The position numbers and the translations under genes are program-made. Below, piece after piece: positions 15,956 through 25,111 of a stretch of 25,349 bases of DNA (the stretch's first letter is position 1; every line of letters begins with the position of its first letter). The DNA is taken from positions 1 to 25,349 of IMG/VR virus record IMGVR_UViG_3300021335_000082. One strand, given 5' to 3'. Source of the DNA: a virus. The notes below the pieces were generated by a model. The model was not told the origin of the DNA and searched no databases. It was given only the letters and a program-made list of their open reading frames with translations.

Positions 15956-16104
15956 TATCTTTTCTTAGCAGTTTTAGCTGCTTGTTTAAATTGTTTAGCA
16001 GTTGGTGCACCTTTGGCCCCTCTTTTTCTCATTTTTTCTTTTGATCCTGCTTTGATTCTTTTTCGCTTTGCGTGAATGTTAGCGTATAATCCCTTTTTAG
16101 CCAT
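15955..16104 (-). CDS. 49-aa conserved basic microprotein
   Basis: The ORF runs from ATG at 16104 to a TAA overlapping the next ATG. The protein begins MAKKGLYANIHAKRKRIKAG, then MRKRGAKGAPTAKQF and ends with an Ala/Lys helix. The MAKKGLYANIHAKR-x-RIKAGS ... G-x-KGAPTA pattern is widespread in small genes of marine phages. It is strongly basic with no cysteines. Function is unknown; packaged DNA binding is plausible. Confidence 0.78.
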   Translation of the reverse strand: MAKKGLYANIHAKRKRIKAGSKEKMRKRGAKGAPTAKQFKQAAKTAKKR

Positions 16105-16106
16105 AA

Positions 16107-16253
16107 TTATATAAACCTTTTAGTGTAATCTATTATTTTAGTCGATTTTCGAAATTTTTTAGATTTTAAATCTTTACTAAACTGCTTTCTTTTATCCAAT
16201 TGCTTCTTAATGTCAATTTTAAACATTGGTAATTTAAGATAATTAGTTTTCAT
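16107..16253 (-). CDS. 48-aa basic microprotein
   Basis: An ORF from ATG at 16253 (overlapping the previous stop as ATGA) to TAA at 16107. The product starts MKTNYLKLPMFKIDIKKQL and is rich in Lys, Phe and Ser, with SKKFRKSTKIIDYTKRF at its end. I do not recognise it. The gene fits the gap between two conserved microproteins, so it is probably expressed, though its start has only AAGGCAG as a weak ribosome site. Confidence 0.6.
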   Translation of the reverse strand: MKTNYLKLPMFKIDIKKQLDKRKQFSKDLKSKKFRKSTKIIDYTKRFI

Positions 16254-16384
16254 CTGCCTTGTCCCTTATATCTTGTTAGCTTTTGCTGTAGTTTTTCCGA
16301 TTTCGATTTCGATTTTTTGTGGATTCCACGTCTTTTTTTTGGTTTTTCCCTAGGTACGAAATGAGTAAACTTTTGCTTAGCCAT
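16250..16384 (-). CDS. 44-aa conserved basic microprotein
   Basis: ATG at 16384 and TGA at 16250. The protein has FVPREKPKKRRGIHKKSKSK at residues 9-28 and ends RYKGQGR. The FVPR ... RRPxxHxKS ... YRGQG pattern recurs in small phage proteins of cyanophages and pelagiphages, which supports it being a real gene. It is almost entirely basic and probably binds nucleic acid or is packaged. Confidence 0.78.
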   Translation of the reverse strand: MAKQKFTHFVPREKPKKRRGIHKKSKSKSEKLQQKLTRYKGQGR

Positions 16385-16386
16385 TA

Positions 16387-16650
16387 TTAATCGTCAAGGA
16401 AGGATATAGTCGCTACACCACCTGCGAATGCTGATGATTTAGGATATTTCTTAATAGTTTTACCTACTTGTCTAGATCCTGAATGAATTTTTTTAGAAGC
16501 ACCTGTAATTGCTTTAGATGTTCCTATAAATCCTGCTTTTCCTGCTTTGTCAGCTGCCATTTTAGACGCTGCACCTATCTTTTTTTTGCCTTTATATAGG
16601 GTTTTAAGGATTCTTAATCCCATAGTCCCTGCTGCTACTGCTGGTATCAT
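16387..16650 (-). CDS. First gene of the late operon: basic protein with Gly/Ala segments
   Basis: An 87-aa protein starting MIPAVAAGTMGLRILKTLYK, with GKKKIGAASKMAADKAGKAG in the middle and a C-terminal AFAGGVATISFLDD stretch. It is Lys/Gly/Ala-rich with weak hydrophobic ends and no catalytic motif. GAAGGGG lies before the ATG. As the first gene after a roughly 200-base leader it would be the first late product made. It could be a small ejection or internal virion protein, by analogy of composition only. Confidence 0.6.
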   Translation of the reverse strand: MIPAVAAGTMGLRILKTLYKGKKKIGAASKMAADKAGKAGFIGTSKAITGASKKIHSGSRQVGKTIKKYPKSSAFAGGVATISFLDD

Positions 16651-16688
16651 AATGATAACCCCTTCTTGTTATGGTGCTGTACAAAACC

Positions 16689-16746
16689 CCCCTATTGTCA
16701 GATTGTTCTACGACAATCATGACTTAGGGGTGATTGTAAAACCCCT
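16689..16746 (-). promoter_or_regulatory. Alternative hairpins in the late leader (attenuator-like)
   Basis: In the minus-strand leader, AGGGGT (16746-16741... read leftwards) can pair with ACCCCT (16731-16726) over a nine-base loop. The same ACCCCT block can instead join AGGGG at 16694-16689, reinforced by ATTGTC/GACAAT (16717-16712 with 16699-16694), followed by TTTT. The two folds exclude each other. On the plus strand the first hairpin is followed by GGTTTTTCTTT and would act as a terminator. Confidence 0.45.
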
Positions 16747-16810
16747 GGTTTTTCTTTGTTGTTTACAATTGTCAGCTCACTGTTGTTCGCTGTCTTTTAT
16801 TTGTTGTTGT

Positions 16811-16846
16811 CGATTTATTGCTGTTGCTAGTAGCAACAATAAATCG
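16811..16846. repeat. Long inverted repeat (operator or hairpin)
   Basis: CGATTTATTG and TTGCT on the left pair with AGCAA and CAATAAATCG on the right, a 15-pair stem with a CTG bulge and an AGT loop. Its core TTGCTA-G-TAGCAA recurs as a wider-spaced pair at 16951-16972. It would lie at the 5' end of a late transcript started from the TATAAT near 16860. It may be a repressor operator, a 5' mRNA stabiliser or part of an origin. Confidence 0.7.
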
Positions 16847-16950
16847 CTGTTGTTTATATTATATATTGGTAGTCAGTTAACTCTCGCTTGTCGATTGATT
16901 AATTGATTACCGATAATGATTTAACCTATTGATATTACTAGACATCTTGA

Positions 16951-16980
16951 TTGCTAGTGTAATTGATAGCAACGTATAAA
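16951..16980 (+). promoter_or_regulatory. Candidate early promoter with overlapping operator
   Basis: TTGCTA (16951-16956) and TATAAA (16975-16980) lie 18 bases apart, a reasonable sigma-70 layout with an imperfect -35. The inverted pair TTGCTA ... TAGCAA (16951-16956, 16967-16972) covers the -35 and spacer, where a bound regulator would block transcription. The first early ATG is at 17047, giving a leader of roughly 60 bases that includes a TGTGTGTGTAG tract. Confidence 0.5.
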
Positions 16981-17046
16981 GTACCTATATCCATACATTA
17001 TTAGATGTGTGTGTGTAGGTATATTAACCAATAAAGGAGATAAGAT

Positions 17047-17169
17047 ATGTTAAGTACTATAATGATAAGCTTACTATGTATATGGTTAGCTATAATGATA
17101 ATGGGTCAAGTGATAAGTGGTGTAGTAGCATACAATCTATACAATACTTTCAAGGAAGCCCAGAAATAA
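17047..17169 (+). CDS. 40-aa membrane microprotein
   Basis: An ORF of 40 codons with AAAGGAGATAAG just before its ATG. Residues 3-29 form one hydrophobic segment (STIMISLLCIWLAIMIMG, VISGVVAY), and the C-terminus NTFKEAQK is charged. It is the first gene of the early operon and so probably abundant soon after infection. It most likely sits in the host inner membrane. Holin-like action cannot be excluded, but an early position argues for another role, such as superinfection exclusion. Confidence 0.65.
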   Translation: MLSTIMISLLCIWLAIMIMGQVISGVVAYNLYNTFKEAQK

Positions 17170-17170
17170 T

Positions 17171-17341
17171 ATGACATTTCACATATGGATAGGACTACTA
17201 GCTATATTAAGTAGCTTTGTTATGTCCTTTTTAGGTGTAATCTTAATGATACATCTAGACTTTTGGACTGGCATTTTATTAACAATAACAGGTATGGTTT
17301 GTTTACTAAGAGCTCTACCACGAATCAACGAGGAGATATGA
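17171..17341 (+). CDS. 56-aa two-segment membrane protein
   Basis: The ORF starts one base after the previous stop and ends in an ATGA overlap with the next gene. It has two hydrophobic stretches, about residues 4-27 (IWIGLLAILSSFVMSFLGVI) and 31-48 (FWTGILLTITGMVCLL), separated by a short HLD loop, then a polar tail ending RINEEI. It has no clear Shine-Dalgarno, so it is probably translated by coupling. Small early inner-membrane protein; family not recognised. Confidence 0.6.
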   Translation: MTFHIWIGLLAILSSFVMSFLGVILMIHLDFWTGILLTITGMVCLLRALPRINEEI

Positions 17342-17526
17342 TAACATACGAAGTTATGCAAAGAATAGAGGGAGATACAGATAAGCATAGTAATTATCAG
17401 CTTATACAGTATGAGTTCCCTTTTCCAGAAAATTCTGTTCTAATCGAGAGAGATAAAGAAATGAATAGAATATTAAATAAACCAATTATTATTACAACGA
17501 GTAATAATAATAATTGTCAACAATAG
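17338..17526 (+). CDS. Small early protein of unknown function
   Basis: A 62-aa protein from ATG at 17338, preceded by GAGGAG five bases back; a further in-frame ATG at 17263 is inside the membrane gene and has no ribosome site. The sequence has QYEFPFPENSVLIERDKEMN in the middle and an Asn/Gln-rich end (TTSNNNNCQQ). No known fold is visible. Confidence 0.62.
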   Translation: MITYEVMQRIEGDTDKHSNYQLIQYEFPFPENSVLIERDKEMNRILNKPIIITTSNNNNCQQ

Positions 17527-17535
17527 GAGTTAATT

Positions 17536-17721
17536 ATGACAACTGAACAACAATCGTTTGTACCATATACTGAATCTAAATCAGTTGAGGACAGAATAGC
17601 TTACGTTAAAGCTAATCCTCACAAGTATATGCCTAAAGCACAGTATGATCTTGTTAAAAGTTTACATAACAAGATTGAAGCTTTAGATAGCAAGATGAAT
17701 GAAATCTTAGCTAAGAAGTAG
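17536..17721 (+). CDS. Small early protein of unknown function
   Basis: A 61-aa protein with AGGAG before its ATG. The N-terminus is polar (MTTEQQSFVPYTESKSVEDR), followed by KANPHKYMPKAQYDLVKSL and a short amphipathic helix (HNKIEALDSKMNEILAKK) that could dimerise as a coiled coil. Composition and codon use resemble neighbouring genes. No function can be assigned. Confidence 0.62.
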   Translation: MTTEQQSFVPYTESKSVEDRIAYVKANPHKYMPKAQYDLVKSLHNKIEALDSKMNEILAKK

Positions 17722-17734
17722 ATAATTGGGTACA

Positions 17735-17760
17735 CCCCCTCGTAATGAGGGGTTACCCCT
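17735..17760 (+). promoter_or_regulatory. C4-G4-C4 alternative hairpins before the gene at 17783
   Basis: CCCCTC (17736-17741) can pair with GAGGGG (17747-17752) over GTAAT. Alternatively AGGGG (17748-17752) can pair with CCCCT (17756-17760) over TTA. The two folds share the G block, so only one can form at a time. No T-run follows. The pattern repeats the logic of the late-leader hairpins, in front of a ribosome site at 17773-17778. Confidence 0.5.
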
Positions 17761-17782
17761 AATAATTAATATAGGAGAGTAT

Positions 17783-18016
17783 ATGAGTGATAAACCAATA
17801 ATGAGAGACCCTATGGACTCTGAAGAAGCTAAAGAAATGCAATTAAGATATAAATTAATGGAGTCTATAGAGTATGACTTTACAGATTGGGAATGTAAAA
17901 AATTATACGATTTAGCTATGTATGATTTATTAACATCTAGCGAGTGTAAGATAGCTATAATGTTAATGGCTCAAAAACTAGGCAATATACCAATACCAAA
18001 GGAGGACAATGAGTAA
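17783..18016 (+). CDS. Small acidic early protein of unknown function
   Basis: A 77-aa protein beginning MSDKPIMRDPMDSEEAKEMQ. I place the start at 17783, which has AGGAGAG five bases before it; an in-frame TTG at 17726 would force translation through the hairpins. The middle contains YDFTDWECKKLYDLAMYDLL and a hydrophobic helix (CKIAIMLMAQKLG). It overlaps the next start by 8 nt. Confidence 0.65.
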   Translation: MSDKPIMRDPMDSEEAKEMQLRYKLMESIEYDFTDWECKKLYDLAMYDLLTSSECKIAIMLMAQKLGNIPIPKEDNE

Positions 18017-18251
18017 AAACTTAATAGTATATAAAGTTGATTATGTTAATAGACACGAAGATTATAACACCCAGACAGGTAGATTTGTTAGAACTAAAAG
18101 AATAGTTATGACACCTGATGAGGTTAATCAGACAGATGGCTATTGGCGTAATCACAGAAATGTAGAAAAGAAATTTGCTATGCAAATGATGGGCAAAGAA
18201 GATGCCTGTTGGGATAACAAATATAGAGTAATGAGAGTGAGGAAAGCATGA
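18009..18251 (+). CDS. Small basic early protein of unknown function
   Basis: An 80-aa protein with GGAGGA before its ATG. It contains YKVDYVNRHEDYNTQTGRFV, then KRIVMTPDEVNQTDGYW and ends with a basic RVMRVRKA. Its Trp/Tyr/Arg content suggests a compact, perhaps nucleic-acid-binding protein, but there is no recognised domain. Confidence 0.65.
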   Translation: MSKNLIVYKVDYVNRHEDYNTQTGRFVRTKRIVMTPDEVNQTDGYWRNHRNVEKKFAMQMMGKEDACWDNKYRVMRVRKA

Positions 18252-18415
18252 AAAAAACACCTAAACATTGGACAGCTAAAGCATGGGCAGAACATATGCT
18301 ATGGATAAGTGGATTTACTAACAATAAAGAGGTTAATTATGTTCAGAGTAATACTAGAAAACAAGTTCAGAGAAAATCCAATAAATCTAAGCAGAGCAGT
18401 AAAGCTGCTGTATAA
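18248..18415 (+). CDS. 55-aa basic early protein overlapping the next gene
   Basis: ATG at 18248 overlaps the previous stop as ATGA. The product begins MKKTPKHWTAKAWAEHMLWI and ends in a Lys/Ser/Gln-rich tail (KSKQSSKAAV). Its last 77 bases are shared, in another frame, with the gene starting at 18339. The N-terminal part has a convincing gene-like composition; the C-terminal tail may simply be the alternative frame of the next gene. Confidence 0.5.
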   Translation: MKKTPKHWTAKAWAEHMLWISGFTNNKEVNYVQSNTRKQVQRKSNKSKQSSKAAV

Positions 18416-18641
18416 CCAAGACTTTACAGGTTCAATAAGAAAAGAGAACATACTGTGGTGGAAAAAATACTTTCTTAAAGTAATCCACCTACCAATATTA
18501 TATCCAAAAACAGGATATATACAGATAGTTAAAATATACAGAGATAAGAAACCATCAATAAGAGTAGTAACCATACCATCAGGCTCCGACAAGCGTGAGC
18601 TGTTGGTATTAAATAAAATATATGGAGGTAACAATGGGTAA
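18339..18641 (+). CDS. Early protein of unknown function
   Basis: A 100-aa protein starting MFRVILENKFRENPINLSRA, from an ATG with AAAGAGG upstream. Later blocks include IRKENILWWKKYFLKVIHLP and GYIQIVKIYRDKKPSIRVV. It is basic and mixed alpha/beta by eye. It ends eight bases inside the next gene. No family recognised. Confidence 0.6.
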   Translation: MFRVILENKFRENPINLSRAVKLLYNQDFTGSIRKENILWWKKYFLKVIHLPILYPKTGYIQIVKIYRDKKPSIRVVTIPSGSDKRELLVLNKIYGGNNG

Positions 18642-19059
18642 ATGTAAACGTACACCACACAAAAGTAATATAAATGCTAATATTGCTAAAATATTGACAT
18701 TACATAGAGTGTGGAATGGTTATACACAAAGAAATATAGCACAATGTATAGAAGTAACATTTCAACAAATACAAAAATATGAAAGATGTATTAACAGATT
18801 ACCTGGTGATCATCTTGTAGATATATGTAATCAAAAACGTTGGGATTTAAATTTGTTTGCTGTAACAAAACCAGAAGCAATATTTGATGAGTGGATGAAA
18901 ACTATAGATCCTTTTGAAGATGATAGTCCATACCCATTACGTATATCTCAGATAACAAGAGCTTGGGAAAAAATAGATAATGTAGGTAAACATAACTACT
19001 TAACTAGACAAACTAATCCTAAATATAAAATACTATTAAACCAAATGAGAGGAGATTAA
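18634..19059 (+). CDS. XRE-family HTH transcription regulator
   Basis: A 141-aa protein with GGAGG eight bases before the ATG at 18634. Residues about 18-70 form an XRE/Cro-like helix-turn-helix: NIAKILTLHRVWNGYTQRNI, then AQCIEVTFQQIQKYERCINR, with the usual Gln and Tyr-Glu positions, and LPGDHLVDICNQK closing the fold. The C-terminal half (PEAIFDEWMKTIDPF onward) has no clear domain and may mediate dimerisation. It is a natural candidate to bind the TTGCTA/TAGCAA sites near 16824-16836 and 16951-16972, but this is inference. Confidence 0.78.
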   Translation: MGKCKRTPHKSNINANIAKILTLHRVWNGYTQRNIAQCIEVTFQQIQKYERCINRLPGDHLVDICNQKRWDLNLFAVTKPEAIFDEWMKTIDPFEDDSPYPLRISQITRAWEKIDNVGKHNYLTRQTNPKYKILLNQMRGD

Positions 19060-19265
19060 TGAATGGAATTATTTCTGTTGTTAGATTTGTTACTTATACT
19101 GTTGGTGGTTTAGCCATCAGGAAAGCTTGGAATTGGCTCATCGAAGATGTCGATCCAATTCCTGGAAGTCAAGAATTTGATAATGAATATTATCAGACAA
19201 AAAGTAAATACATACGATTAACTAAACTAAAGGAAAAACATGAAGCGTATAGAAAAAATAGGTGA
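19059..19265 (+). CDS. Small early protein with hydrophobic N-terminus
   Basis: A 68-aa protein whose ATG overlaps the regulator's stop as TAATG. Residues 3-20 are moderately hydrophobic (GIISVVRFVTYTVGGLAI), followed by KAWNWLIEDVDPIPG and a charged, helical C-terminus (SKYIRLTKLKEKHEAYRK). It could be membrane-associated. Function unknown. Confidence 0.58.
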   Translation: MNGIISVVRFVTYTVGGLAIRKAWNWLIEDVDPIPGSQEFDNEYYQTKSKYIRLTKLKEKHEAYRKNR

Positions 19266-19410
19266 AGTAATAGTAAAATCAATAACATTCCCATTAAGAA
19301 TGGCGATAGGAATATGTAAGGCTGTTGAACAAAATATGCCTGACAAATTAGAAATGCCAATCGAAATAAAAATAAAGGAGGATAAAAATGCAGACAAAAC
19401 TGCCAGTTAA
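19240..19410 (+). CDS. 56-aa early protein overlapping both neighbours
   Basis: ATG at 19240 with AAAGGAAA upstream; it overlaps the previous gene by 26 nt and the next by 23 nt. The protein starts MKRIEKIGEVIVKSITFPLR, with an amphipathic helix, then MAIGICKAVEQNMPDKLEMP, and ends in a Lys/Asp-rich tail. No known family. Confidence 0.58.
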   Translation: MKRIEKIGEVIVKSITFPLRMAIGICKAVEQNMPDKLEMPIEIKIKEDKNADKTAS

Positions 19411-19660
19411 ATCTAGAGTAGCAGATAAGTATCAACCAATGCTTACATACTATGCAGAACTTATAGGACTATGTCATGAGACTGTTACAAAAACAGAATC
19501 ATTAAAAATGTTAGACCCTATGGGTAAGAAAACTACTGCAACATCGTTGTTTATTAGAGTTTGTCAAAGAATGGACAAGTCAATAGACGCTAAAGAAATT
19601 GCAGATAAATTAGAAACTGTAAGTAAATCAACTGAACAAAGGAGTGCAGTCAATGAGTAG
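19388..19660 (+). CDS. Small early protein of unknown function
   Basis: A 90-aa protein with AAAGGAGG before its ATG. It begins MQTKLPVKSRVADKYQPMLT and contains YYAELIGLCHETVTKTESLK and a helical segment (SIDAKEIADKLETVSK). Mostly helical by eye. No recognisable domain. Confidence 0.62.
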   Translation: MQTKLPVKSRVADKYQPMLTYYAELIGLCHETVTKTESLKMLDPMGKKTTATSLFIRVCQRMDKSIDAKEIADKLETVSKSTEQRSAVNE

Positions 19661-20252
19661 TAGTAAAACACCTATACGACAAGATGAGAAAGACTATCTT
19701 GATCATTTTATTGAAACAAAATATGACGATAGAAAAAATGTTTTAAAAACTGAAATGCAAGATACCATTGATAAAGAAGCAGAAGATAACTTCGAAGCAT
19801 TTAAAAATAAACTTAAAATTAATAAATTGCACGAAGATATTAGAGCTTTATATAACGATCACAAAAAGTTTGCAAACGAAATGGATTCTATTTTACTTGA
19901 GAAAAAAGGTAAATTAGATAATGCAATCAATGTGTTAGAAGATAAACTTGATCAATGGAAAAAAGTTAGAAAATGGAAAAACGATATAGAAAGATCGTTG
20001 ATTAAAGAACCTGATGAGTTAGATAGGCTGCTTAAAAAGTTATGTCATGAAGAAACAGAACGTGACTATTATTCAGGCCCAAGAGGTAAAGCAATACAAA
20101 TGTTAGATATGTCTAAAGAGTATTGTAAAAACTTGCTTAACGCAGGTCAATCTCTGTCTACTGTATGGGGTGTGCTCGATCAAGAAATGGGTAAGGAAAA
20201 GATTAATACTAATACTATTCCTAAACCAGAGTTCTTATCAATTACTAAATAA
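19653..20252 (+). CDS. Coiled-coil early protein, largest of the early operon
   Basis: A 199-aa highly charged helical protein. I use ATG at 19653 because AAGGAG lies about ten bases before it; an in-frame GTG at 19644 is too close to that site. Residues 20-115 are rich in Lys/Asp/Glu heptads (KNVLKTEMQDTIDKEAEDNF, LDNAINVLEDKLDQWKKVRK), suggesting a long coiled coil. The C-terminal part has GPRGKAIQMLDMSKEYCKNL and LSTVWGVLDQEMGK. It may oligomerise or bind a host complex; no family is recognised. Confidence 0.68.
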   Translation: MSSSKTPIRQDEKDYLDHFIETKYDDRKNVLKTEMQDTIDKEAEDNFEAFKNKLKINKLHEDIRALYNDHKKFANEMDSILLEKKGKLDNAINVLEDKLDQWKKVRKWKNDIERSLIKEPDELDRLLKKLCHEETERDYYSGPRGKAIQMLDMSKEYCKNLLNAGQSLSTVWGVLDQEMGKEKINTNTIPKPEFLSITK

Positions 20253-20266
20253 TAATAAACATGGTA

Positions 20267-20294
20267 AATGCCCGGTACTTTGTAACTGGGCATT
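20267..20294 (+). other. Intercistronic hairpin
   Basis: AATGCCCGGT and ACTGGGCATT form a ten-pair stem with one G-U, around an ACTTTGTA loop. It lies 15 bases after a stop and 20 bases before the next gene. No T-run follows, so it is more likely an mRNA processing or stability element. The short frame 20261-20296 (11 codons, MVNARYFVTGH) covers it exactly. Confidence 0.55.
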
Positions 20295-20314
20295 AACCCA
20301 ATAGAAAGATAATT

Positions 20315-20599
20315 ATGGTAGATCAATCATTATACTACTTCGAACAAGATGTAGGTAAAAAAGTATACGAAATGGAATATGAAGTAACTTATGTAACTAA
20401 ATGGCAAGTACTTGCTGAAGATAGAGACAAAGCTACTGATATTTGGATTGAAAATTCTAAAATGGATTTGTCAACCGAAGATGGTAAAGACTGTGTATGT
20501 TCTTATGTAAAAGATTATTCACAAGTAGGCAGTACAAAAGTTATTGCAGAAATTAAATACAACAAAGAAGATGATGAGGTATATGCAGATGAATCTTAA
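20315..20599 (+). CDS. Small acidic early protein of unknown function
   Basis: A 94-aa protein, very acidic at its C-terminus (KYNKEDDEVYADES). It contains MEYEVTYVTKWQVLAEDRDK, a beta-strand pattern followed by a helix (ATDIWIENSKMD), then KDCVCSYVKDYS. The pattern of strand-helix-strand resembles small phage proteins that carry an AE-x-x-x-x-A motif, but no precise family is assigned. The ribosome site is weak (GAAAG). Confidence 0.6.
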   Translation: MVDQSLYYFEQDVGKKVYEMEYEVTYVTKWQVLAEDRDKATDIWIENSKMDLSTEDGKDCVCSYVKDYSQVGSTKVIAEIKYNKEDDEVYADES

Positions 20600-20747
20600 A
20601 GAACAAACAGAGTTACTCGACAAAGCAACTAATAAAGCTATCAAACAAGTCACTAAAGAACGTGCAGGTAAAAAACGTAACTTTATATTAGAGTGGTTTA
20701 GATACGTAGAATTAGTAAGCAAACAATTAACCAAATGGATAAACTAA
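20589..20747 (+). CDS. 52-aa basic early protein
   Basis: ATG at 20589 with GAGG nine bases before it; ATG at 20583 is in the same frame but too near that site. The product starts MNLKEQTELLDKATNKAIKQ, a charged helix, and continues with Lys/Arg-rich ERAGKKRNFILEWFRY and ends KQLTKWIN. No family recognised. Confidence 0.58.
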   Translation: MNLKEQTELLDKATNKAIKQVTKERAGKKRNFILEWFRYVELVSKQLTKWIN

Positions 20748-20959
20748 TGCATATAGATAAATATAAAATATTTTCCATGGATTATACTTGGAAAAATCAA
20801 AAAAGAAGTAAAGACACATCAGTAAAACAAATGCTTACATCAGATGAATGTATTCAAAGTAAAGATTTTATATCTTTAATAGATAATTTAGATGATGTTT
20901 GGCATAAACATGAAGGTAAAACTTGTAAAATAGAAGTTACCTTTGAACCTTATGAGTAA
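20735..20959 (+). CDS. Small early protein of unknown function
   Basis: A 74-aa protein with MHIDKYKIFSMDYTWKNQKR near the start, then QMLTSDECIQSKDFISLIDN and a C-terminal CKIEVTFEPYE strand. The start is uncertain: ATG at 20735 or the in-frame ATG at 20747, which overlaps the previous stop as TAATG. No strong ribosome site is seen, so coupling is likely. Confidence 0.55.
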   Translation: MDKLMHIDKYKIFSMDYTWKNQKRSKDTSVKQMLTSDECIQSKDFISLIDNLDDVWHKHEGKTCKIEVTFEPYE

Positions 20960-20964
20960 GAATA

Positions 20965-21138
20965 ATGGATAAAATGAAAGAAATGTTTGAATTACGTAAT
21001 GCAATTAAAAACTTTTTAGAAAATACTTTAGAAGCAGATATTCAAGGTGCTGGAATGAGTGTAACAGAACCTTCTTCTGCAGATATATCTTTTAAAATAG
21101 ACAATATTAATTATACATTAACAATAGATGAGGAATAA
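20965..21138 (+). CDS. 57-aa acidic early protein
   Basis: An ORF of 57 codons filling the gap between two other genes, ending directly before the ATG at 21139. The product is MDKMKEMFELRNAIKNFLEN, then LEADIQGAGMSVTEPSSADI and an acidic SFKIDNINYTLTIDEE. It has a helix followed by two or three strands. Composition and spacing match the neighbours; function unknown. Confidence 0.6.
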   Translation: MDKMKEMFELRNAIKNFLENTLEADIQGAGMSVTEPSSADISFKIDNINYTLTIDEE

Positions 21139-21468
21139 ATGTATTTATTACACATAATAAAATCAGATGGTACTGTTGAAACAGTAAATAATAAAACAAA
21201 ACCTACATTTGAACAAATGTATAAACATATAGGTTGTGACATGATTGAAATGTCTAAAGCTTATTACCCTAAATATTCTAATAGAAAAGATGGGTATGTA
21301 GATATATATTTTGATGAAGAATTTCTTATGAAAGATTCAGAACCAAATGTAGAAGCTACAATAGCTTGGAAAACATGGCAAGATAAAACAGGTCATATGG
21401 CATTGCCAGGATCCTTATTACATGGTACAATATGTGTTATACAAAAGGAGGAAAATGAAACTACGTGA
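21139..21468 (+). CDS. DUF3846-like small protein
   Basis: A 109-aa protein with GAGG before the ATG. It reads IGCDMIEMSKAYYP, DGYVDIYFDEEFLMKDSEPN, EATIAWKTWQ and ends LHGTICVIQ. This succession (G-x-IE ... DEE-x-x-x-K ... P-N-x-x-AT ... I-x-G-x-x-V) is the outline of the DUF3846 family as I know it, a small phage/plasmid protein of unknown role. The match is by pattern only. Its last 14 bases overlap the next gene. Confidence 0.6.
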   Translation: MYLLHIIKSDGTVETVNNKTKPTFEQMYKHIGCDMIEMSKAYYPKYSNRKDGYVDIYFDEEFLMKDSEPNVEATIAWKTWQDKTGHMALPGSLLHGTICVIQKEENETT

Positions 21469-21718
21469 CGATAAAGAAATAAAATTAGATACTATGTTAA
21501 AAGAATGTAACCAATTAGTAGAAGATTTAAGAGTAAAACTTAAACTACAAATTGATGAAGTATTAAAACTTCGTAAAGATTTAGATTTAGAAAAAGAAGA
21601 ACATCAGTTAACTCAATTAAAATATGATTCTATAAAAAGTAATTTAGATAAATTAATGACTGATAAATTAAATGCAGCAAGAGCTGCTGTAGAGGAGATC
21701 AAAAATGACAGAACTTAA
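21455..21718 (+). CDS. Coiled-coil early protein
   Basis: An 87-aa protein from ATG at 21455, with AAAGGAGGAAA directly before it. Nearly all of residues 10-80 are heptads of Lys/Leu/Glu/Asp (LVEDLRVKLKLQIDEVLKLR, KDLDLEKEEHQLTQLKYDS), so it should form a coiled coil. No other domain is visible. It overlaps the next start by 14 nt. Confidence 0.65.
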   Translation: MKLRDDKEIKLDTMLKECNQLVEDLRVKLKLQIDEVLKLRKDLDLEKEEHQLTQLKYDSIKSNLDKLMTDKLNAARAAVEEIKNDRT

Positions 21719-21950
21719 AGATGAACATCTAGAAGTTATATCTAAAAATAAGTCTAAAAAATATGAAATAGATAAAATGGTAGAACAATTATCTGATGCT
21801 AAAGAATCAGTTGCAGTTCTAAGTAATGCTATTGAATGTGGTTTTTTACATGATAAACATTCCTTGATTTTACAAGAATGGATTGTAGAATATGAAGAAT
21901 TGTCTCAACAATTAGACACACACTTAACGGAGGTAAGAGACCATGGATGA
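21705..21950 (+). CDS. Coiled-coil-like early protein
   Basis: An 81-aa helical protein starting MTELKDEHLEVISKNKSKKY and continuing with EQLSDAKESVAVLSNAIECG and EWIVEYEELSQQLDTHLTEV. Charged heptads resemble those of the gene upstream, so the two may interact. GAGG lies upstream of the ATG. Function unknown. Confidence 0.62.
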   Translation: MTELKDEHLEVISKNKSKKYEIDKMVEQLSDAKESVAVLSNAIECGFLHDKHSLILQEWIVEYEELSQQLDTHLTEVRDHG

Positions 21951-22107
21951 AAGAGCACTTAAAATGTTACTTGCTGGAAAGCAATTAGAAATAGATAAAT
22001 TAAAACGTACAATAAAGGAGATGGAAGAAAATGATAATGCCAGACAGCGAGATTCTGAGACTAGAAAAACGTCAAAGAGGACTACAAAGAGTAGCAACAG
22101 CAATTAA
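21943..22107 (+). CDS. 54-aa basic early protein overlapping the next gene
   Basis: ATG at 21943 follows GGAGGT with a good spacing. The protein has MDERALKMLLAGKQLEIDKL, a leucine-rich helix, then a Lys/Arg/Ser/Thr tail (RKTSKRTTKSSNSN). Its last 77 bases lie in another frame of the gene starting at 22031. The N-terminal helix and strong ribosome site favour a real gene. Confidence 0.55.
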   Translation: MDERALKMLLAGKQLEIDKLKRTIKEMEENDNARQRDSETRKTSKRTTKSSNSN

Positions 22108-22330
22108 CGATCTAAGTATATATGGTATATACCCAACTAACTTTCCAAAGTTAATTCAGGTATTAGAACACGCTAAAGACCATGTTAAAGCTGAGATAAC
22201 AGCTACTAGAAAACGTATAATAGAACACTCTGCAATTAAAGTAGAAGAAGTATATACAGACCCATTAAAAACAGAAGCTCAAAAAGATTCTGATAATATT
22301 AATGATATGTATTCTACAAAAGGTATTTAA
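22031..22330 (+). CDS. Last gene of the early operon, unknown function
   Basis: A 99-aa protein from ATG at 22031, with AAGGAG about eleven bases before it. The first half is helical and basic (EILRLEKRQRGLQRVATAIN), then YPTNFPKLIQVLEHAKDHVK, then ITATRKRIIEHSAIKVEEVY. The end is acidic. It looks like a small helical binding protein. No family recognised. Confidence 0.62.
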   Translation: MIMPDSEILRLEKRQRGLQRVATAINDLSIYGIYPTNFPKLIQVLEHAKDHVKAEITATRKRIIEHSAIKVEEVYTDPLKTEAQKDSDNINDMYSTKGI

Positions 22331-22334
22331 GAAT

Positions 22335-22421
22335 TCTACTATAAGACCCATGATCAGAAGTCATATAGCATTGAGGGAATGATTCTGTAGTAGATAGAGC
22401 TACCTGGGAGACTGGGTAGCT
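22335..22421 (+). ncRNA. Structured RNA element at the end of the early operon
   Basis: Two stems lie in series. The first joins TCTACTA (22335-22341) and CAGAAGTCAT (22355-22364) on the left to ATGATTCTGTAGTAGA (22379-22394) on the right, 16 pairs with a 13-base bulge and one bulged G. The second joins AGCTACC (22398-22404) to GGTAGCT (22415-22421). The operon's last stop is at 22330. The element could be a 3' UTR terminator complex or a small RNA; no T-run follows the second stem. Confidence 0.5.
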
Positions 22422-22443
22422 TGTTAAATAGTACTTAACTAAA

Positions 22444-22492
22444 ATTATGTCATGCATGGAGATGTTAAGCTAAGTTTATTCCAGGACATAAT
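22444..22492. repeat. Perfect 8-base inverted repeat in the convergent gap
   Basis: ATTATGTC (22444-22451) and GACATAAT (22485-22492) can pair across 33 bases. The pair encloses CATGCATG. The convergent 22331-22614 gap otherwise holds the upstream RNA element and a possible 22-codon frame at 22493. It may be part of bidirectional termination. Confidence 0.5.
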
Positions 22493-22561
22493 ATGAAAAA
22501 AAAGCTATTTATAAATTTAACCTGCTTATTCGGACTTGTAAACTTACAATGGTATTTCTAG
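22493..22561 (+). CDS. Possible 22-aa hydrophobic microprotein
   Basis: ATG at 22493 is preceded by CCAGGAC at a usable distance. The product, MKKKLFINLTCLFGLVNLQW then YF, has a basic start and a hydrophobic core like a signal or leader peptide. It is very short and lies between convergent operons, so it may be a chance frame. Confidence 0.28.
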   Translation: MKKKLFINLTCLFGLVNLQWYF

Positions 22562-22614
22562 TTTAAGATTCTGTAAGTGTACCTATACTAGATAAAGGCC
22601 CAAGGAGGAGTAGG

Positions 22615-22911
22615 TTAGATTTTAGTCATCTTTACAATCCAAGATGTAGGAATATTAGTACGATCTCCATAAGTATAAGATCCATCTTCTTCAATATATG
22701 CTGCAAACAATTTAATAGAATGTTTGTCTTTAGAAAATAGCCATCCTTCGTTTACTGGATGTGCTAGTTTCATGTTAGTAAATTCTTTGTGCTCAGCCCA
22801 ACCTGAATCACTTACACAGTCAACCCACTCAACTCTGTATTTGTCATAAGGTAATGTATGAGAATCTTTAGAAAAAGTAACTTTTTTTTTAGTGAAGCGT
22901 TTCTTTACCAT
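22615..22911 (-). CDS. Small phage protein of unknown function
   Basis: A 98-aa protein with a basic start (MVKKRFTKKKVTFSKDSH), then DKYRVEWVDCVSDSGWAEHK and NEGWLFSKDKHSIKLFAAYI, ending IPTSWIVKMTKI. The EW-x-D-x-x-SDSGW ... GWL ... IP-x-x-WI pattern recurs in small phage proteins that I cannot name. It overlaps the preceding gene by 23 nt and is the last gene of the minus-strand regulatory module. Confidence 0.65.
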   Translation of the reverse strand: MVKKRFTKKKVTFSKDSHTLPYDKYRVEWVDCVSDSGWAEHKEFTNMKLAHPVNEGWLFSKDKHSIKLFAAYIEEDGSYTYGDRTNIPTSWIVKMTKI

Positions 22912-23176
22912 CAGCAGCCCATATAAAAGTTGATCTATCGTTTTCTTCTAAAGCGTCCATAATGTTATCTGGAACATTGTGACCTTCTTCATCAAAAACT
23001 AATTGAAGATATGTACTGTAAATAATAGCTAAAGCCATTGCGTCTGCAGCTCTAATACACATATCAGGATTTTGACGTTTAATAAAATCGCCAATAGCTT
23101 CTGGTTTAACATTATCTAAAAATGTTTCAGAATAATTCTTTTTAGATTTTTTGGGAAATTTTAATATTTTATTCAT
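22889..23176 (-). CDS. Small protein of unknown function in the regulatory module
   Basis: A 95-aa protein starting MNKILKFPKKSKKNYSETFL, then KPEAIGDFIKRQNPDMCIRA, ADAMALAIIYSTYLQLVFDE and an acidic C-terminus. Mostly helical, one moderately hydrophobic helix (about residues 44-60). No ribosome site is strong. No family recognised. Confidence 0.6.
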   Translation of the reverse strand: MNKILKFPKKSKKNYSETFLDNVKPEAIGDFIKRQNPDMCIRAADAMALAIIYSTYLQLVFDEEGHNVPDNIMDALEENDRSTFIWAADGKETLH

Positions 23177-23210: not shown

Positions 23211-23633
23211 TTATTTGGGTTGCAGTAAAAAATCAATGTTATTCTGTATTTTAGGTACAAGTTTATCATAAACTGTACGCCAAAGCATAGAATCGTCATA
23301 AAAAAAGTTCTTATTTTTCCACATATCGTGGTAATGACTATAAAATTTAGAGCATATATCGACAGCATCTATATCTAATTTAATCCAAAAATCTTTTTCA
23401 CTCATACCATTAGTATGTAATAAATGATGATGAGGATAACAAAGAGGTACAGTAAATTGATCTCCAACTTTCTGTGAAAAACCTCTAGGCATAGCAAAAG
23501 TTATATGATGAGCTTGACATCTTGTGTCCTGGCAAAGTATACAAGGATTAGATGCTACCCACTTTAGGTATTCTTTGTCTTTGATTCTTTGTACCTTGTC
23601 CTCTGATAGTATTGTGCACTTTTTTATAGCCAT
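23211..23633 (-). CDS. HNH-type nuclease
   Basis: A 140-aa protein. Residues 17-36 read IKDKEYLKWVASNPCILCQD, with CILC and DTRC supplying possible zinc ligands; QAHHITFAMPRG gives the AHH core; VPLCYPHHHLLHTNG gives the second metal block. This is the layout of short phage HNH/DUF968-like endonucleases (P1 Ref-type and NinG-neighbour families). Both histidine blocks look intact. It overlaps the upstream regulator by 86 nt, a large overlap for this region. It may process recombination intermediates or cut host DNA; the exact role is inferred. Confidence 0.8.
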   Translation of the reverse strand: MAIKKCTILSEDKVQRIKDKEYLKWVASNPCILCQDTRCQAHHITFAMPRGFSQKVGDQFTVPLCYPHHHLLHTNGMSEKDFWIKLDIDAVDICSKFYSHYHDMWKNKNFFYDDSMLWRTVYDKLVPKIQNNIDFLLQPK

Positions 23634-24048: not shown

Positions 24049-24334
24049 AATTTATTTTATAATTTTCTAAAGCTTTATCAACGAAAGATTTAAATTTTTC
24101 GTTTTTATTATACAAATTATATAATCTATAAACTCTATTTGGTTTACAATTATGCAAACGAGCAATAATGCTCTTACACCCATACACTTGTGTAGGGTGC
24201 AATAGCCAGGATAGTAAAATACATAGATTATATATCTTGTATTCTCTGCTATTATTAACAGTTCTTTTACCTTTTAATATATCTAAAGATACATTATAAG
24301 ATGAACTACAATACTTTTGAATATAACTAACCAT
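24035..24334 (-). CDS. DnaA domain IV-like DNA-binding protein
   Basis: A 99-aa protein from ATG at 24334. Its whole length aligns in outline with domain IV of bacterial DnaA: IQKYCSSSYNVSLDILKGKR for the first helix and basic loop, EYKIYNLCILLSWLLHPTQV for the long helix, and SIIARLHNCKPNRVYRLYNL where DnaA has IG-x-x-FGGRDHTTV. The GGRDH signature is replaced, so it may bind a different site. An in-frame ATG at 24508 lies inside the opposite-strand exonuclease gene and adds unconvincing sequence, so I did not use it. The start lies 9 bases from the divergent exonuclease start. The origin-like region near 16900 is one possible target. Confidence 0.55.
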   Translation of the reverse strand: MVSYIQKYCSSSYNVSLDILKGKRTVNNSREYKIYNLCILLSWLLHPTQVYGCKSIIARLHNCKPNRVYRLYNLYNKNEKFKSFVDKALENYKINYASN

Positions 24335-24343
24335 AGGATAAAA

Positions 24344-25111
24344 ATGAACATTGAATATAGACATAGTGCTTCTAAAACTAATAGCTTTATTGATTCTCCA
24401 CCTTATTGGATAATTAATAACTTGTATGATTTTAGTTCTGAAGCTAACGCAAGAATGATAATGGGCAGTACTGCTGAAGCTACAGCAGAACACGCTTTGC
24501 AAAACCAAATCACTGATGAAGAAGTTATCATAGATATTGCAAAAACTAAATACATAGAATTAAAAGGTGATGAGTCAGATGACGAATGCCTTTGGTCTGG
24601 TATAATTGCTAATCAGTTTGTTAAAGAACTACCTCAGTTTGGCAAAATTATTTCTTATCAAAAAGAAATTGTGTCGCCTGGCGAAAAATATGGTTTAAAA
24701 TTTGATGTTAAAGGTGTTACTGACTTTGAATTTGATGATGTAATCATAGATACTAAAGCTACTGCTTACATAAAAAGACTAAAATCTGGTGCTATTGATA
24801 GCAGATGGTACCCAAAAGACGCTGATTTGCGTCAACAAGCTCTGTACAAAGACCTTTTTAATAAACCGACAGCATTGCTGTATTGTTCTTACAAAGACGT
24901 TTACAGCGTGGATATGGAGGGCAGAGAGGGTCATTTAGAGACCATTATACAAGCTATGAAACATATAGAACATATCTTGGATATTGCTAAAACAAAAGAG
25001 GACATAGTTAAAATGTTTCCATTAACTATGGATAACTTTAGATGGGGTAAATCAGATAATGAGCCATCTAGAATATATGCAAAAAAGGTTTGGCAAGAAG
25101 CCTTTAAATAG
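24344..25111 (+). CDS. PD-(D/E)XK exonuclease, Cas4/RecB-like
   Basis: A 255-aa protein with AGGAT just before ATG at 24344. Landmarks in order: YRHSASKTNSFIDSPPYWII near the N-terminus, a GSTAEATAEHAL motif near residues 41-52, LKFDVKGVTDFEFDDVIIDT followed by K (the catalytic D ... DTK pair), and DLRQQALY (a QhxxY-like motif). These define a PD-(D/E)XK nuclease of the RecB/Cas4/lambda-exonuclease superfamily. No cysteine cluster for an iron-sulfur site is seen. It is the first gene of a plus-strand unit and probably serves phage recombination or end processing. Confidence 0.8.
   Translation: MNIEYRHSASKTNSFIDSPPYWIINNLYDFSSEANARMIMGSTAEATAEHALQNQITDEEVIIDIAKTKYIELKGDESDDECLWSGIIANQFVKELPQFGKIISYQKEIVSPGEKYGLKFDVKGVTDFEFDDVIIDTKATAYIKRLKSGAIDSRWYPKDADLRQQALYKDLFNKPTALLYCSYKDVYSVDMEGREGHLETIIQAMKHIEHILDIAKTKEDIVKMFPLTMDNFRWGKSDNEPSRIYAKKVWQEAFK

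Follow-up and report, generated by a model that had tools for sequence, protein, structure and literature searches.

We analysed a 25,349-nucleotide (nt) stretch of viral DNA, IMG/VR record IMGVR_UViG_3300021335_000082, positions 1 to 25,349 (the window), which carries a block of 22 small plus-strand genes at 17047-22330. In the 396-base gap between divergent genes that lies directly upstream of this block (16651-17046) and is conserved in relatives, hairpins were found to be preserved by compensatory change with a plus-strand wobble bias, their shape being kept and their letters not across dozens of relatives, and this leader stays in position with different first genes following it in different relatives. 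With modest confidence, we favour a cis-acting structured leader of this operon as the best explanation. Taken as separate steps, a plus-strand RNA structure is very probable, a cis leader of this block is probable, and elongation control, argued from anatomy, is tentative. As far as Rfam and literature searches show, the leader and its companion elements are undescribed, the literature search having found no paper on pelagiphage noncoding RNA. An earlier sequence-only reading of this DNA had placed the best prospect of undescribed activity in the gene block; the most notable find is instead an RNA leader just outside it and not a protein. Neither this leader just upstream nor the hairpins inside and after the block had been picked up by that reading. 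The leader is a precise, testable element at the head of an operon, and its covariance model can find the same unit in viromes.

The whole gap folds beyond its shuffles on both strands (plus, z = -7.37, 0 of 100 shuffles; minus, z = -6.37, 0 of 100), while E3-E4 alone give z = -3.4 on the plus and -1.8 on the minus strand. Alignment of the gap resolves the separate elements E1 to E4, and E5 in some relatives, as follows.

16685..16744, strand not assigned: E1, hairpin element AACCCCCCTA-33 nt-GGGTGA-5 nt-AAACCC of fixed 60-nt length, with a slight lean to plus
16811..16846, strand not assigned: E2, palindromic hairpin whose sequence differs between relatives, with no strand preference
16865..16914, plus: E3, 20-base-pair (bp) hairpin, core of the proposed leader RNA
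16926..16969, plus: E4, second hairpin of the proposed leader RNA
16982..17023, plus: E5, third hairpin, directly ahead of the ribosome site of gene 1 and absent from some relatives

The pairing of E3 was assessed in several sets of loci. Some contigs were near-duplicates or had been sampled twice (for example L019/L078 and L020/L109), and pairing was counted on distinct sequences. Among 21 sequences, comprising the window plus 20 loci collected through their gene 9 protein and not through E3 letters, 10 were distinct, and in these a 13-bp E3 stem paired in all 130 cells (106 Watson-Crick, 24 G-U, 0 A-C). A scan with the E3-arm pattern returned 45 contigs, giving with the window 26 distinct stretches, one of which (L041/L060) matched by chance and was removed prior to counting. 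The full 20-bp stem in the remaining 25 comprised 415 Watson-Crick, 81 G-U, 0 A-C and 4 other cells of 500; it was 99.2% paired, a level equalled by 0 of 500 shuffles and compared with 10-56% when the partner was slid, and 6 of the 20 pairs had changed on both sides. G-U cells outnumbered A-C cells by 92 to 0 and by 70 to 0 in two sets, the latter drawn from 30 loci that E1, and not E3 letters, had brought in (25 distinct sequences). A-C cells on the plus strand are the would-be wobbles of the minus strand, and because they are absent in all sets the plus strand is the likely acting strand of E3. In a model-fitted alignment of 31 loci (29 distinct), E3 was 99.0% and E4 83.3% paired, and 16 of 36 pairs had changed on both sides, nine of them among the 16 pairs of E4; 0 of 500 shuffles reached that number.

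E1 was examined through the pattern AACCCCCCTA-N(30-34)-GGGTGA-N5-AAACCC, which was found in 71 viral contigs. Although the pattern allowed 30-34 inner bases only, all 41 distinct matches (window included) possessed 33 inner bases and 60 nt overall. Median identity among the 37 distinct inner sequences is 0.36, yet 36 of their stems out-fold all but at most two of 200 shuffles. Of the pairs read on the plus strand 21 of 447 are G-U, against 6 of 420 for the minus-strand reading, which, the sequences being related, is a lean to plus and not proof. E1 was rejected as an intrinsic terminator on either strand, no T/U run being kept beside the stem across relatives. E2 was rejected as an operator of the gene 9 repressor, two loci (L004 and L022) sharing the E2 sequence while their gene 9 alleles differ (97%, 57%).

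The DNA belongs to an uncultured phage related to pelagiphage HTVC106P. For its capsid and portal proteins the Pfam matches are SU10-type families (1.6e-102, 5.4e-223), its terminase matches Terminase_6N in a profile search and is 51.4% identical to that of Pelagibacter phage HTVC106P, and its nearest named phages are pelagiphages, with partial megablast matches only. The window record is probably a fragment of a larger genome, and related contigs extend to 36.8-38.9 kb.

We then determined how widely the leader is distributed. The covariance model R1 gave strong matches in 48 of 65 sources (84-134 bits, one each); weak opposite-strand matches (up to 37.6 bits; 21 of 69 and 12 of 42) arise from near-palindromic stems and were excluded. 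Among 36 contigs newly brought by E1, 30 held an R1 match and the other six end 6-166 nt after E1. The larger records carried one strong leader copy in five of six cases, and two copies in one dimer-like record. The L112 contig (G017; 88,284 bases) has both the terminase gene and the leader in duplicate, about 44 kb apart, and is either two genome copies (a dimer) or two joined relatives. Searches with blastn found the leader in no named phage, and R1 had no match in HTVC106P, HTVC010P, Baldr, HTVC112P or Venkman. For bacterial genomes the leader was ruled out by the E1 pattern only, which was found nowhere in a collection of bacterial and archaeal genomes. A known RNA was ruled out by Rfam: like Rfam families the leader is a conserved structured RNA, but none reaches its gathering score in four related loci, and in the window the best E values were 0.56 (16000-23000) and 0.25 (gap alone), all far below gathering scores.

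The gene behind the leader was compared in 61 loci (the window, 30 from before the E1 scan and 30 from that scan, some from the same contig). The first downstream gene was readable in 54 and, sorted by eye, fell into six kinds: gene 1-like (32), MNI-type (12), ISYPKDCYD-type (4), MLNYNQ-type (3), KIDMD-type (2) and MTIKQ-type (1). In 57 of the 61 loci the strict E1 pattern was found no more than 1.2 kb away, at 93-342 bases ahead of the E3 model start. Because the downstream gene is of six kinds and E1 is present in 57 of 61 loci, E1 and the leader are seen to hold their order while the genes behind them swap. On the other side of the leader, an upstream gene was found in 59 loci, and in most of these it is a small gene similar to the divergent 87-amino-acid (aa) gene of the window.

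Further hairpins were encountered within and after the block.

17728..17758, plus: intercistronic hairpin before gene 5, from its fold; conserved stretch in 17 loci
20263..20298, plus: nested intercistronic hairpin after gene 13; a GCCC/GGGC hairpin in 13 of 13 distinct relatives folded, with changed stems
22398..22421, plus: 3' hairpin with a GAGA tetraloop; stem covaries, GGGAGACT kept

The GAGA-loop hairpin after gene 22 is present in 17 of 17 distinct stretches, and its eight distinct stems comprise 61 Watson-Crick, 18 G-U and 1 A-C cells. Both this hairpin and the one following gene 13 argue for a single plus-strand unit that extends from the leader as far as about 22.42 kb. The 3' gap as a whole (22331-22614) was rejected as a structured RNA (z = -0.8, -0.5), only its single hairpin being kept.

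From these features, the block transcript would begin with a structured 5' leader of about 105 nt, the tandem hairpins E3 and E4 transcribed from the plus strand, with the RNA presumably starting near E3, and would end near the GAGA-loop hairpin after gene 22. The leader would be transcribed with the block and would act in cis on its transcript, not in trans. Judged from anatomy only, the leading candidate for its job would be to let the host RNA polymerase run through a long phage operon by anti-pausing or antitermination. The closest precedent is the put RNA of phage HK022, described in PMC9378689 as about 70 nt with two stem-loops after the early promoters and needing no dedicated protein. 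Both possess two tandem stem-loops, here E3 and E4 at the presumed start of a long unit of small genes. However, put measures about 70 nt and the leader about 105 nt, and HK022 has putL and putR whereas one copy is found here. A put RNA sits just after an early promoter; the present leader lies upstream of the small-gene block, where a promoter was not clearly recognised. A put RNA is further defined by antitermination through the zinc-binding domain of the RNA polymerase beta' subunit. The leader was not filed as a put RNA because R1 does not find put in HK022: nothing significant was returned at 24-33 kb with filters off (best 11.6 bits, E = 0.96). That the leader works like put is an analogy we hold to be rather doubtful. 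A fuller joint reading, in which E3-E4 would be a protein-independent RNA riding the host RNA polymerase and resisting pausing or termination over the 5.3-kb block, with E1 serving the opposite transcript, and would represent a put-like RNA of SAR11 phages with an origin separate from lambdoid put, appears unlikely. Should the leader prove to modify the host polymerase, phages would have a second, independent example of elongation control by RNA only; we know of no such case so far other than put. Skadi, an isolate of the HTVC010P type, is thought to depend on host polymerases, according to PMC10504331.

Several observations weigh against a cis-acting leader of this operon. The closest named phage, HTVC106P, has no R1 match, and its equivalent gap folds no better than shuffles (z = 1.13). 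E4 is kept less well (83.3% paired; G-U 76 vs A-C 15, and 64 vs 9), in an alignment fitted to the model, MAFFT having misaligned E4. Predicted promoters in the region are no more than in shuffles (32 vs 38.6), and the sequence upstream of E3 is AT-rich with weak information, the promoter not being clearly defined. Terminator prediction on the plus strand gave none of the intrinsic kind within the block, so it is not evident that antitermination would be needed. E1 and E2 are both positioned upstream of E3, E1 with no more than a slight lean to plus and E2 with no strand preference.

The nearest alternative job for the leader is protection of the 5' end of the mRNA from decay. Under this explanation E3-E4 would shield the 5' end from RNase E-type decay, processed ends would be shielded likewise by the hairpins that follow genes 13 and 22, and the unit does have hairpins at both its ends (the 5' end being presumed) as well as between cistrons. 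A plain stabiliser, however, needs neither the invariant letters found in and between E3 and E4 nor their kept order with E1, and we regard such stability or translation hairpins as possible but not probable. A replication element is less likely again. Here the divergent gap would be the origin, E3-E4 a primer RNA or single-stranded origin structure, and E1 and E2 origin hairpins. The cumulative GC skew minimum does fall in the 396-base gap, E1 combines a fixed 60-nt geometry with a stem sequence free to change, which is odd for a plain regulatory site, and no DNA polymerase, helicase or primase match was found among the larger window proteins scanned. That scan, however, took in only part of the genome's proteins, a skew flip is also expected from the change of coding strand (the signs of GC skew and AT skew reverse across the small-gene block), and the plus-strand wobble bias of E3 points to a transcript.

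Phages commonly carry small early genes whose function is not known, which counts for an ordinary early block of anti-defence or takeover proteins, as the sequence-only reading had proposed; its leader would then be only a promoter region with incidental palindromes. For early genes of unknown function in another pelagiphage, HTVC027P, a part in initiating phage transcription has been suggested (PMC12753301). One-sided wobbles combined with compensatory change, however, would not be expected of palindromes in DNA, and no defence-related match was obtained in the block beyond the helix-turn-helix (HTH) regulator and a marginal Cas7d, which leaves this account quite improbable. The independence of the leader from the gene behind it would also suit a stand-alone small RNA, excised as E3-E4 and acting in trans on host or competing phage RNA. 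Yet the leader stays at the head of this operon, occurs as one strong copy in five of the six larger records, and has a companion, E1, that is absent from the bacterial and archaeal genome collection; we consider action in trans very unlikely.

The cis-acting leader would serve a small-gene block that is an operon-like unit of an ordinary kind for such phages. Its layout agreed with the sequence-only reading: all 22 plus-strand frames of 40-199 aa are present at 17047-22330 (the starts of genes 5, 9, 13 and 15 were set from sequence), many overlap (15 of 21 junctions), and most have ribosome sites (a Shine-Dalgarno match at 19 of 22 starts). The genes occupy 5,146 of the 5,284 bases. At least four contiguous bases of AAGGAGGT, correctly placed, precede those 19 of 22 starts, compared to 15 of 150 other plus-strand ATGs in the stretch. 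Depending on the frame, a relative is present in 10 to 34 of the 35 loci compared (33 viral contigs, HTVC106P and HTVC010P; many are fragments and some near-duplicates). Across 40 loci searched, from related marine viral contigs, all 22 genes are under purifying selection by the ratio of nonsynonymous to synonymous substitution rates (dN/dS), with medians from 0.13 (gene 8) to 0.61 (gene 12). The only usable comparisons not below 1 came from gene 12 (2 of 32) and gene 19 (1 of 21), and 5 of 28 gene-3 alignments in this set run through a stop. Lack of conservation in close relatives had been named beforehand as grounds for refuting the block; the frames proved conserved and under purifying selection, and that the 22 genes are real is nearly certain.

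16387..16650, minus: divergent 87-aa gene (MIPAVAAG..LKTLYKGK), first gene of the opposite transcript
17047..17169, plus: gene 1, 40-aa membrane-like peptide; five other gene kinds replace it in relatives
17171..17341, plus: gene 2, 56 aa, hydrophobic, conserved among loci
17338..17526, plus: gene 3, supported by dN/dS
17536..17721, plus: gene 4, supported by dN/dS
17783..18016, plus: gene 5, supported by dN/dS
18009..18251, plus: gene 6, supported by dN/dS
18248..18415, plus: gene 7, 77-nt overlap with gene 8
18339..18641, plus: gene 8, lowest median dN/dS in the block (0.13)
18634..19059, plus: gene 9, XRE/Cro-type HTH regulator
19059..19265, plus: gene 10, supported by dN/dS
19240..19410, plus: gene 11, supported by dN/dS
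19388..19660, plus: gene 12, two allelic forms among relatives
19653..20252, plus: gene 13, 199 aa, all-helical; relative is pelagiphage Baldr gp45
20315..20599, plus: gene 14, supported by dN/dS
20583..20747, plus: gene 15, start at 20583 or 20589, supported by dN/dS
20735..20959, plus: gene 16, supported by dN/dS
20965..21138, plus: gene 17, supported by dN/dS
21139..21468, plus: gene 18, DUF3846-like, PHROG 3777 match (7e-7)
21455..21718, plus: gene 19, coiled-coil-like by sequence, supported by dN/dS
21705..21950, plus: gene 20, coiled-coil-like by sequence, supported by dN/dS
21943..22107, plus: gene 21, 77-nt overlap with gene 22
22031..22330, plus: gene 22, supported by dN/dS

The description of these genes as mostly without known family also held. 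Pfam, PADLOC and NCBIfam scans of all 22 proteins and PHROGs scans of 20 (genes 1 and 2 left out) recognise only the HTH regulator and the DUF3846-like protein. The gene 9 HTH matches an NCBIfam Wmk-type HTH (2.5e-6) and RstR (0.0018), both below the family cutoffs, and DUF3846 (PF12957) is a weak match (E = 0.00068) with one member among the 22. PADLOC gave no convincing defence match among the 22, only the gene 9 HTH and one Cas7d (E = 0.032), and is a weak test of anti-defence relatedness since it catalogues defence, not anti-defence, proteins. The host-takeover and anti-defence roles suggested in the sequence-only reading, for which these searches gave no support, may therefore still apply. 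The two coiled-coil-like genes at 21455 and 21705, which had been said to sit side by side, are real, adjacent, conserved and under purifying selection. The AlphaFold2 model of gene 13 is all-helical and fairly confident (predicted local distance difference test score, pLDDT, 83.6); a function from this fold was rejected, the structural matches being limited to an uncharacterised protein from a marine virus, with no significant PDB hit. The gene 8 model is too poor to serve as a query in a fold search (pLDDT 64.7).

In five named phages, relatives were found for gene 9 in HTVC112P (5e-17) and HTVC106P (1e-10), gene 13 in Baldr (2.4e-14), gene 2 in Baldr (4.3e-6, distant) and, weakly, gene 20 in HTVC112P (0.0034). 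HTVC106P resembles the window in partial DNA similarity across the head genes, terminase (51.4%), HTH regulator and a divergent small-gene block, but possesses a relative of only gene 9 among the 22 block genes and no leader RNA. Baldr EXVC032P shares the distant relatives of genes 13 and 2 but differs in gene order, has its own primase and helicase and gives no R1 match. It was noted that Baldr gp45, the gene 13 relative, carries the label 'trichohyalin', and that the gene 2-like sequence (4.3e-6) is an unannotated minus-strand frame near gp45 (L075, 38174-38329).

Variation among relatives was uneven within the block. Gene 12 occurs in forms 29-35% or 86-93% identical to that of the window between conserved neighbours, as if exchanged by recombination. 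Gene 9 falls to 52-62% identity in many relatives, with gene 8 above 85% in most of them, which looks like exchange of a repressor-type specificity gene. The gene pairs 7/8 (18339-18415) and 21/22 (22031-22107) each overlap by exactly 77 nt, and the upstream gene of both ends in a basic Ser/Lys-rich tail within the overlap.

Beyond the block, a 106-nt noncoding stretch (22509-22614) is 99% identical in L004, L005, L019 and L021 (L004 and L005 being near-duplicates), which differ more elsewhere, and this near-identity suggests recent exchange at the block end. A 22-codon frame (MKKKLFINLTCLFGLVNLQWYF), read by eye, lies at 22494-22562 between the 3' hairpin and the convergent genes. On the plus strand at 24317-25111, a 264-aa open frame antisense to minus-strand genes is probably a shadow frame; an equally long frame stays open in contig G010 (L115, 302-1096). 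The minus-strand gene at 23211-23633 has an HNH/DUF968 match (Pfam 2.1e-13; PHROG HNH endonuclease 3.9e-14).

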